From Myxococcota bacterium (GTDB taxonomy: Bacteria; Myxococcota_A; UBA9042; DTJE01): DNA of 39,404 nucleotides. A model generated the notes under the pieces. The model was not told the origin of the DNA and did not search any database. It saw only the letters and a list, made by a program, of their open reading frames with translations. This document shows, piece after piece, positions 26,625 to 29,707 of this stretch (position 1 is the stretch's first letter; the number at the start of each line of letters is the position of its first letter). Made by a program: the position numbers and the translations under genes. The stretch covers positions 1 through 39,404 of the forward strand of contig JAGOKF010000034.1 of the NCBI GenBank assembly GCA_017994695.1, given 5' to 3'.

Positions 26625-26691
26625 GCGGCCGCCCCTGGACTTCCCTCCCGGGAGGGATAGACTCGGGGCATCGAAGGGGCAGGAGAGGGAC

Positions 26692-27756
26692 ATCGACTCG
26701 ATCGGTCGGCCGAGGTGGGAGGCGGGGCTCAGTCTCGCGGACGTGGACGCGGTGCGCCTGCTGCTCCGGGGCGGGTCGGTGGTGGACTGGCCCCGGCTCC
26801 ACCTCAGCACGTTCGCCGAGGCCGCCTCCTTCCTGCGGGTCAACGGCTACGACCTGGAGGAGGCGATTGCCCAGCAGCGCCTCCGGGACCTGCTCTGGAG
26901 ATCCGTGGAATACCTCGAAAAGACCTTCGACTACCGGTTCCCCGGGGAACTGACCCGATCGGACTCGATCCCGGAACTGCTGATGGTCGCCTCGGACATC
27001 CGGAATCCCTGGCAGCGCTTGGCCTGCGTGCTGCTGAAGACGATGCACATCATCAACCACGTCGAGGCGGCCGAACTCCGGTCCCGCCTGCCCCTGGACG
27101 AGGAGGTGCTGTTCCGCCGGGCTTCGGAGGCCCTGGACCGGGCCGTGGCGGAACTGCAGGCCGAGGGGATCTCCCTGGTCTCCTACCGGTCGAGCCGGAA
27201 GTCCTCCCACAGCCTCTTCACCAAGATTCTCGGCCGCAAGAGCACCGTGGCGGCCCAGATCTACGACCGGGTCCGCTGCCGCCTGGTGTGCGAGAACGCC
27301 CGGGACATCGTCCCCCTGCTTTCGGGCCTGAAGGACCGCCTGCTGGCCTGGAACTACGTGGTGCCGGGACAGTCCCGGAACGAGATCGTCCGGAACGAGG
27401 CCCTGGTGGAGGCCCTGCGGGCGGACCCCGACGCCCGGCGCCGCCTGTGGATCCGCCTGGCGGTCGAGGATGCGGCCGACCGGCAGGACTGGAACCGGTT
27501 CTCGGCGGCGGGTTTCCGCATGGTGAATTTCGTGGTGGACATGCCCATCGCGGTGACGGACCTGACCCGGACTCATTCCCTGGGAGACCGGCTGGGATTC
27601 CTGGTCATGCAGCCGGTGGAGTTCCAGGTCTTCGACCGCCAGACCTGGGCCTGGAACGAGGAGGGGGAGGGCAGCCACCCCCGATACAAGGACCGGCAGC
27701 GCTGGGAGGTGATCCGCCGCCTGGAGCGGGAGGGGGAGATGGGCGGCGGATCCTAG
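26692..27756 (+). CDS. Divergent RelA/SpoT-type synthetase-domain protein
   Basis: The protein has 354 residues if it starts at the ATC at 26692, or 337 from a GTG at 26743. ATC is preferred because AGGAGAGGG lies just before it, the GTG has no ribosome site, and residues between the two look coding. The C-terminal half matches the RelA/SpoT synthetase fold by eye: S-x-RKSSHSLFTKI (169-179; compare R-x-K-x2-YSI-x2-KM), QIYDRVRCRLV (189-199; compare YDLLAIR), and VEFQVFDRQTWAWNEEGEGSHPRYK (compare VEVQIRT ... AE-x-G-x-AH-x-YK). No HD hydrolase, TGS or ACT domain is present. Some core residues differ, so alarmone synthesis is uncertain; a synthetase-like or inactive regulator is possible. It may correspond to an uncharacterised family known in Myxococcota (recollection, unverified). 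Confidence 0.75.
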   Translation: MDSIGRPRWEAGLSLADVDAVRLLLRGGSVVDWPRLHLSTFAEAASFLRVNGYDLEEAIAQQRLRDLLWRSVEYLEKTFDYRFPGELTRSDSIPELLMVASDIRNPWQRLACVLLKTMHIINHVEAAELRSRLPLDEEVLFRRASEALDRAVAELQAEGISLVSYRSSRKSSHSLFTKILGRKSTVAAQIYDRVRCRLVCENARDIVPLLSGLKDRLLAWNYVVPGQSRNEIVRNEALVEALRADPDARRRLWIRLAVEDAADRQDWNRFSAAGFRMVNFVVDMPIAVTDLTRTHSLGDRLGFLVMQPVEFQVFDRQTWAWNEEGEGSHPRYKDRQRWEVIRRLEREGEMGGGS

Positions 27757-28568
27757 ACCCCTCCCGGGACCCGGTTCCGCAGCATCCTCCGGACCTGCCG
27801 GCGGACCTCCCGGGCGGAGGGCCGGGCTTCGGGATGGGGGGCCAGCATCGCCTCCACCAGGGGCGCGAGGTCCGGGTCGAGGGACCGGATCGCGCCCAGG
27901 TCCGGTCGCCGGGTCCGGGCCACTTCCCTGGGAGGAGCGGCTCCGGAGGGGAGTTCCAGCGCTCCCAGGGCCCGGCAAGTGATCCACCCCATCGAGGCGA
28001 CCTCCGCGGCGGGGGTGGGGGCATCTCCCTCCAGCACCTCCGCCGCCAGGTAGGGGAGCGTTCCCACCCGGATTCCATCCTCTGGAGTCGCGACCCCCGG
28101 TCTGTCGCCCCGGAGGTCCACCAGCACTGCCCGCCCCCGGGGTGTCAGGATCAGGTTTCCGGGCGAGACGTCTCCGTGCAGCCTCGGGGCCGCAGGACTG
28201 TCCTCGTGGATCCACGCCAGTCCCTCGGCCAGGTCCGCGAGGACCGGGATCCACCGGGAGGGGAGGAAGGGGCCCTCCGACAGGGCATCCCGGAGGGACC
28301 GCCCCGGAACCTGCCGGAACAGGTGCCAGGTCGCCCCCTCGGAGTCGATTCCCCAGGCCACCAGCCGCTCCACCCGGGGATGGGGGGGGGCGATGCCTTC
28401 CACCTCGGGAGGGGGCGGCCACGGGTCTCCTGGGCGCCGGGGTGCGTGTCGCCGGACCACCAGGACCCGTCCCCGGAGGGTGCACGTCCAGGTTTCGCAA
28501 CGGGGGCGCAGGGAGAGCGGGTGGCACAGCCGCAGGAGGGTCGGATCCAGGGTTCCCGAGTGGTCCAT
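27753..28568 (-). CDS. Atypical protein-kinase-fold protein
   Basis: The protein has 271 residues. GGGGAGCGGA precedes the ATG at 28568. The kinase C-lobe is visible: RLHGDVSPGNLIL (His131, Asp133, Asn138), then VLVDLRG with Asp151 where DFG would be, then GTLPYLAAEVL and a second E-x-ASMGW segment. The Gly-rich loop is not recognisable, and the usual Lys region reads VLVVRRH. Asp and Asn for catalysis and metal are present, so it may be active on small molecules or proteins, or it may be a pseudokinase. The stop shares CTAG with the convergent RelA/SpoT-like gene. It lies 71 bases after dnaJ on the same strand, with a strong hairpin between. Confidence 0.78.
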   Translation of the reverse strand: MDHSGTLDPTLLRLCHPLSLRPRCETWTCTLRGRVLVVRRHAPRRPGDPWPPPPEVEGIAPPHPRVERLVAWGIDSEGATWHLFRQVPGRSLRDALSEGPFLPSRWIPVLADLAEGLAWIHEDSPAAPRLHGDVSPGNLILTPRGRAVLVDLRGDRPGVATPEDGIRVGTLPYLAAEVLEGDAPTPAAEVASMGWITCRALGALELPSGAAPPREVARTRRPDLGAIRSLDPDLAPLVEAMLAPHPEARPSAREVRRQVRRMLRNRVPGGV

Positions 28569-28579
28569 TCCGCTCCCCG

Positions 28580-28621
28580 GTCGCGGCGCCTTCCCGCCGG
28601 GACGCCCGGCGGGCTCGCGAC
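28580..28621 (-). other. Strong nested hairpin between dnaJ and the kinase-like gene
   Basis: A perfect 9-bp stem (CCCGCCGGG at 28593-28601 with CCCGGCGGG at 28605-28613, 3-base loop) sits inside a 6-bp outer stem (GTCGCG at 28580-28585 with CGCGAC at 28616-28621). It has no T-run and ends 11 bases before the next ATG, next to its ribosome site. It could block read-through, or mask translation of the kinase-like gene. Confidence 0.6.
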
Positions 28622-28639
28622 GGCATTCCGAACGCCCGT

Positions 28640-29707
28640 TCAGTGGGACTCTTCCAGGTCCCGGATCTGTTCGTAGAGTTTCCGGACGGCTCGGGAGGGG
28701 TCCCGGGGCACCACGACATTCAGGCGGACCCAGAGGTCTCCCCGCCCGCCGCCACCCAGGCGGGGCATCCCCTCGCCGACGATCCGGATGTCGTCGCCCG
28801 GCTGGCTCCCCTTGGGGATCGTCACGGTCACGGGGCCCAGGATGCCTTCCAGCGTCCGTTTCCGCCCCAGCACGGCGTCGTGGACCGGGATGCTCAGTTC
28901 CATCAGCAGGTCGTCCCCTTCCCGCTTGAAGCGCGGGTCGTCCTGGACCTGGCAGATCACATAGAGGTCCCCCGCCTGGCCGGACCCGGCGCCGCCGGCC
29001 CGGGGCACCCGCAGCGTGTTGCCGCTGTCCACTCCCGGGGGGATGCGCACCGTGACCCGATCCTCCTGGCGTCCCCGGCCGGTCCCCCGGCACTCGGGGC
29101 AGGCGTTTCGCAGAATGCGCCCGGCGCCCCGGCAGTGGGGACAGGTGGTGGTGATCGTGAAGAGGCCCTGGCTGTGGGCCACCCGACCGTGGCCCCGGCA
29201 GGTGGGGCAAACCTCCGGGGCACTGCCCGGGGCCGCGCCGCTTCCCTTGCAGGATTCGCAGACCACCTCCCGGGAGACCCGGATTTCCTTCTCGACCCCC
29301 GTGGCGGCTTCCTTCAGGGAGATCGACACCTGGACCTGCTGGTCCCGGCCCCGATGGCCGGAACGCCGGGAGGAGGATCGCCCGAAGAGGCTTCCCAGGA
29401 GGTCCTCCAGCCCGCCCTCGCCCTGGAAGAACTGGTCGAAGATGCTGAAGAAGTCCTCGGGGGATGGGTTGTAGCCGCGGCCCTTCAGGCCCGCCTCTCC
29501 GTACCGGTCGTAGATGGCCCGCTTTTCCGGGTCCGACAGGACGTCCCAGGCCTCGGCGATGGCCTTCATCTTCTCGGCCGCCGAGGGATCGTCCGGGTTC
29601 CGGTCCGGGTGGTACTGGAGCGCCAGGCGTCGGAAGGCCTTCTTGATCTCCTCCCGGTCCGCGTCGCGGGAGACACCGAGGACCTGGTAGTAGTCCGTCG
29701 CGCTCAT
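28640..29707 (-). CDS. dnaJ: Chaperone protein DnaJ
   Basis: The protein has 355 residues. The J-domain (1-70) has YHPDRNPDD with the essential HPD. A Gly/Phe region follows (about 75-115, [14 protein letters not shown]), then the zinc-finger region with four C-x2-C-x-G-x-G repeats ([32 protein letters not shown]), then the substrate-binding C-terminal domains. It stimulates DnaK ATPase and delivers unfolded clients. dnaK and grpE are not in the window, so this may be a second or dispersed copy. TTGACA occurs on the minus strand at 29740-29745, but no good -10 accompanies it. Confidence 0.96.

Follow-up and report, generated by a model that had tools for sequence, protein, structure and literature searches.

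The window (the whole stretch of DNA that was analysed, 39,404 nucleotides from a bacterium of the phylum Myxococcota) contains a gene of the TIGR04552 family (26692..27756, plus strand; 354 codons and a TAG stop, with an apparent ATC start) whose product carries a RelA/SpoT-type (p)ppGpp-synthetase domain in its C-terminal half (about residues 160-345). As read from the aligned sequences, the active site has a standard donor and metal side and a rebuilt acceptor side. It is highly probable that the protein is an active pyrophosphokinase, whatever its acceptor, and the balance is somewhat in favor of an enzyme of the RelA/SpoT fold that uses a guanosine acceptor (GDP, GTP or GMP). Such an enzyme, encoded on the chromosome, would probably be a housekeeping one that acts beside the ordinary long Rel of the same genome.

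Residues of the window protein are numbered throughout from the ATC codon at 26692, apparently the start codon in the simplest reading, which rests on the codon pattern shared with a sister species (L002, on the same contig as L035) and on an AGGAG six bases upstream. Protein conservation with the sister species reaches upstream to 26692, and the differences between the two sequences, counted by codon position, are of the coding type over 26692-26742 ([2,0,9]) as against [4,4,2] over the 39 bases before the ATC (26653-26691); GGGAG stands in L002 at the place of the AGGAG in the window. The earliest in-frame ATG, GTG or TTG is the GTG at 26743, with none between it and 26692, and in more remote relatives an ordinary start codon lies near this position. 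The sister-species comparison thus supports the start that the preliminary description had placed at 26692, the codon there being ATC and not ATG, GTG or TTG. An ATC start common to the window and the sister species could point to weak or regulated translation.

The protein matches NCBIfam TIGR04552 over essentially its full length (E=1.1e-83; 281.4 bits against a cut-off of 125; profile positions 2-351 of 352) and lies above the cut-off of the sister model TIGR04562 as well (264 bits against 140). TIGR04552 is a catalogued family name without a stated function, and the preliminary description, which had offered a new type of small alarmone synthetase (SAS) as one option, had missed that the family was already named and that some relatives already lie above the Pfam RelA_SpoT cut-off; of its three options, the new SAS type nevertheless fits best. 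Among the sampled genomes of the phylum, 143 of 237 (about 60%) have a TIGR04552 match, nearly always as one copy, and the window's genome has one; there was no match in 14 named control genomes, E. coli and B. subtilis among them. L004 (Reyranella), which had come up as a relative, was rejected as an ABC-transporter permease with a chance shared stretch. In the literature searched, TIGR04552 appears in one paper, on an evolution experiment with coculture in which one Bdellovibrio gene is listed as carrying an indel (PMC9888234), and TIGR04562 is not mentioned; we found no proposal of an alarmone-synthetase function for TIGR04552 in this literature, which leaves most subscription papers outside it, and no report there of enzymatic activity for any member, a point that counts against the active-enzyme reading. 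A 2011 survey of RelA/SpoT homologs (RSH) distinguished 12 SAS groups, bdRel and divRel among them (PMC3153485).

Assignment of the synthetase domain comes from the family as a whole. Taken alone, the window protein scores 16.2 bits against Pfam RelA_SpoT (PF04607), below the gathering cut-off of 27, which counts against the assignment. RelA_SpoT is matched at E<=0.01 in 19 of 36 family members (best E 1.5e-6) and is the sole biologically relevant family found in them, the other Pfam match being a single stray one (E 0.0098); when 113 genomes were searched with the Pfam model, the curated cut-off was exceeded at four TIGR04552 loci (G037:C15, G062:C241, G007:C25 and G090:C23), with alignments spanning model positions 4-112 of 113. 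The profile built from 51 relatives, compared by hhalign with the synthetase domain of the long Rel proteins of the same phylum, gave a probability of 95 and a score of 61, and compared with the small alarmone synthetases of the phylum it gave a probability of 97 and a score of about 83-84, the maximum score among one reversed and 99 column-shuffled controls being 24. P values across the RSH comparisons ran from 4e-8 to 5e-11, and the signal was confined to the C-terminal half. When the family profile was searched against the PDB, RSH synthetases made up nine of the ten matches, B. subtilis YwaC ranking first (2.2e-4), and RelSeq (1vj7) aligned at both ends of the domain in the correct order.

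AlphaFold2 models were built from three sequences and are of low confidence (mean pLDDT 56.3 at full length and 51.5 for the domain). Foldseek placed RSH synthetases at all of ranks 1-26 for the full-length model and 1-47 for the domain model, with low global TM-scores (0.2-0.5); because both the scores and the model confidence are low, a point against the assignment, we used the ranking of matches and not the geometry. At this low confidence, the models do contain the synthetase core. The three motifs from which the preliminary description had recognized the domain are present where it had placed them (RKSSHSLFTKI at residues 169-179, IYDRVRCRLV at 190-199 and VEFQV ... GSHPRYK at 309-333) and align, in the order expected, with the active site of the synthetases by both HMMER and hhalign; the TIGR04552 match, the invariance of the residues and profile scores above the shuffled controls place them beyond chance. 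Its remark that other alarmone domains are lacking is right for the window protein, and the genome additionally encodes one ordinary long Rel with hydrolase (HD) and synthetase domains, in one copy (G000:C20).

Across 36-51 relatives, with identities as low as 22-25%, the motif residues do not vary. In RelSeq, the residues that bind pppGpp or catalyze include R241, K243, S247, K251, D264, K297, Y299, K304, N306, H312, E323 and Q325, and synthesis is abolished by D264G and by E323Q (PMC13299517); the adenine is sandwiched by R241 and R269 and the guanine is stacked on by Y308 (PMC7983052). The equivalents of RelSeq K243, S247, K251, D264, R269, E323 and Q325 are K170, S174, K178, D192, R197, E310 and Q312 in the window protein, and each is present in 51 of 51 relatives. 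By HMMER and hhalign, RKSSHSLFTKI (27196..27228, plus strand) supplies the three residues that correspond to the nucleotide-phosphate ligands K243, S247 and K251. DRVRCR (27265..27282, plus) supplies the counterparts of the catalytic, metal-binding D264 and of R269 of the adenine sandwich, and EFQVFD (27619..27636, plus; aligned to 1vj7) those of the catalytic E323 and of Q325, together with an invariant, family-specific D315. HPRYKDRQ (27676..27699, plus) combines the HxxYK common with RSH proteins and a family-specific RQ that follows it. The R241 equivalent is out of register, shifted by one residue with an arginine there in 42 of 51 relatives, and counts against the assignment.

On the acceptor side, the family has PGQSRN (27364..27381, plus; N230 invariant and family-specific) where Rel has PGRFKDYI, and K297 and Y299 are lost. 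Next, in the G-loop region, comes a variable insertion of about 35 residues (231-265; 27382..27486, plus) that is absent from Rel and SAS, appears as a gap in hhalign, has low pLDDT, and occupies the stretch between 'FKDYI' and 'PKxNGY' of Rel. The segment after it, NRFSAAGFRMVN (27493..27528, plus), was matched in the comparison of the profile with the PDB to GYRSLHLIIEMPVNL of YwaC. Here F275 corresponds to Y308, a position that is aromatic in all 51 relatives (Y in 37, F in 14), and N279 to H312, where 50 of 51 have N, H or Q; at the position of the guanine-contacting A335, 34 of 51 relatives have alanine. The invariant N268 is aligned by hhalign with N306, an equivalence that we hold tentative because S is frequent at that place in known SAS. 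K297, Y299, K304 and the PK of 'PKxNGY' are not kept, which again counts against the assignment, and of the SAS acceptor loop 'DYI..PK(N/S)GYRSLH' the Y/F and a partial H alone remain. Residues N230, D315, Q336 and R343 are invariant and specific to the family.

The helical N-terminal region (residues 1-157; 26692..27162, plus; secondary structure taken from the model) is family-specific, with G27, S29, D32, C112, H119 and H123 nearly invariant. The preliminary description had called an N-terminal region of about 150 residues unlike Rel, and these roughly 157 residues match neither the HD nor the synthetase (SYNTH) profile of RSH proteins. On this lack of a profile match we rejected a degenerate HD domain as an explanation of the region; the control comparison of HD with SYNTH was uninformative, the segments overlapping. 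The region probably controls or assembles the enzyme.

The gene has a chromosomal setting. Its divergent neighbor in the window is rpoN, recognized by a reading of the sequence, and a degenerate-looking protein-kinase gene (27756-28646; PF00069 marginal, at its cut-off) is convergent and is followed by a DnaJ gene. The neighborhood of rpoN, an hpf-like gene and rapZ is restricted to the window's own family, and we therefore rejected any functional inference from these neighbors. At 14 of 57 related loci, in several families of the phylum, and in the window as well, a Ser/Thr kinase gene is found within 1.5 kb in a tail-to-tail arrangement; this recurrence may be old synteny, and kinases are common in Myxococcota. 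Beside the TIGR04552 gene, with rpoN divergent and the kinase convergent, no antitoxin-like small partner gene was seen. PADLOC gave no match, nor did a phage collection searched with the window protein or a plasmid collection searched with one relative, and scans of viral contigs found no relatives. Outside the window's own family, a zinc-ribbon/GYF_2 gene adjoins the TIGR04552 gene, mostly divergently, at six loci (L040, L041, L043, L044, L046 and L117). In family f16 (L099, L100, L094, L053 and L054), DUF507 and guanylate-kinase-domain genes lie nearby, and the second of these may merit attention beside a putative guanosine alarmone enzyme.

If the homology extends to function, D192 and E310 would hold Mg2+, ATP would be bound by K170, S174, K178 and R197, and the beta-gamma pyrophosphate of ATP would be transferred to an acceptor nucleotide at its 3'-hydroxyl, with the acceptor stacked on F275. 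The acceptor would most likely be GDP, GTP or GMP, yielding a (p)ppGpp-type alarmone additional to that of the long Rel, and the rebuilt loop would leave room for a different one. An active pyrophosphokinase whose acceptor is an adenosine nucleotide, another nucleotide or an RNA 3' end (for example, tRNA CCA) is possible and clearly less probable than one that uses guanosine; its donor side would be standard, and the remodelled loop together with D315 and N230 would recognize the new acceptor. The loop is indeed the part that has changed, through the loss of K297, Y299 and K304 and the gain of the insertion, and the invariant N230, N268, D315, Q336 and R343 are absent from Rel; moreover, tRNA modification and (p)ppApp synthesis are known among RSH relatives (PMC11559606, PMC12691689). 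Against such an acceptor speak the Y308 position, which is always Y or F, and the alanine kept by most relatives at the guanine-contacting A335 position, as do the lack of a toxin-antitoxin setting and a retention in most of the phylum that is unlike that of the known tRNA-modifying toxic small alarmone synthetases (toxSAS).

The protein might instead be catalytically silent and serve as a sensor of ATP, GTP or (p)ppGpp or as a regulator of another protein, perhaps the neighboring kinase, and the recurrent tail-to-tail kinase gene, the displaced R241 and the several acceptor-side residues that are not kept are consistent with this. We consider it improbable, since both essential carboxylates and every donor-side residue are invariant at 22-25% identity, which is more than selection for mere binding would require; the inactive relative that the preliminary description had offered as one option is hard to square with the same residues. 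Its toxin-like option finds no support in context or distribution. The known toxSAS are divergent single-domain synthetases (PMC11559606, PMC11782079), which speaks for this option, but a toxSAS or an anti-phage effector is very improbable for a gene that has no small partner, matches nothing in PADLOC or in the phage and plasmid collections, and occurs phylum-wide near single copy (143 of 237 genomes) instead of in the sporadic, mobile distribution of toxSAS. We give practically no credence to an enzyme from elsewhere in the nucleotidyltransferase superfamily whose likeness to RSH would be one of general fold: structures of TdT and polymerase X do appear lower in the fold search, but they rank behind 26-47 RSH matches, and two motifs specific to RSH, HxxYK and EFQ, fall in the expected order in the alignment.

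The family, present in about 60% of the sampled Myxococcota genomes, keeps the whole alarmone-synthetase catalytic set, and the changed acceptor loop makes the identity of the product a directly testable question. If the pyrophosphokinase is active, one enzyme has escaped work on the stringent response in these social and predatory bacteria, and deletion of the long Rel to make a ppGpp0 strain may leave some alarmones behind. A bolder reading, to which we attach a rather low probability, takes the family to be a second pyrophosphokinase, phylum-wide and chromosomally fixed, under the control of a new N-terminal sensory domain; its product would be an alarmone distinct from (p)ppGpp, or it would pyrophosphorylate a different target, and in that case it would constitute a separate branch of alarmone signaling in Myxococcota and predatory bacteria.

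Other proteins with RelA_SpoT or RelA_SpoT-like domains came to light in the phylum. For four divergent ones that may be CapRel-like (L135-L138), comparison with the family profile gave no match (probability 2.4). A second unnamed group consists of 429-582-codon frames from family f9, which lacks TIGR04552 (L085, L086 and L087), and family f3 (L088 and L089); its C-terminal part is very divergent and RelA_SpoT-like (motifs KDVFGVK, GW.A.K, FEVQ and SH.(S/T)F), its hhalign probability against the Rel synthetase is 78, and L088 and L089 have no NCBIfam match. Further frames of 521-840 codons carry a RelA_SpoT domain (L092, L083, L084 and L142), and in one of these (L092, G110:C28, 546 codons) the domain stands behind an N-terminal region that, read by eye, resembles a membrane/HAMP-like sensor.

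With respect to known systems, the window protein belongs over its full length to NCBIfam TIGR04552/TIGR04562 ('TIGR04552 family protein') and does not differ in kind from its members. It shares the catalytic residues of the synthetase domain with the long Rel of the RelSeq type but lacks the hydrolase, TGS and ACT domains, and its N-terminal part does not match HD. With CapRel and the toxSAS FaRel2 it has in common a divergent RSH synthetase fold (in the Foldseek search with the full model, the structure of CapRel from Salmonella stands at rank 40), whereas the TIGR04552 gene is without an antitoxin partner or a phage context. It also resembles the small alarmone synthetases RelP (SAS2, YwaC) and RelQ: SAS gave the best score in the profile comparison, YwaC is the best solved relative, and the window protein, like them, has a SYNTH domain without HD, TGS or ACT (and no other Pfam domain), with K, S, K, D, R, Y/F, E, Q and HxxYK in the same order. 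Compared with RelP and RelQ, the window family has about 157 extra N-terminal residues, an insertion in the acceptor loop, no 'DYI..PKxNGY', an R241 equivalent out of register, and four additional invariant residues in N230, D315, Q336 and R343.
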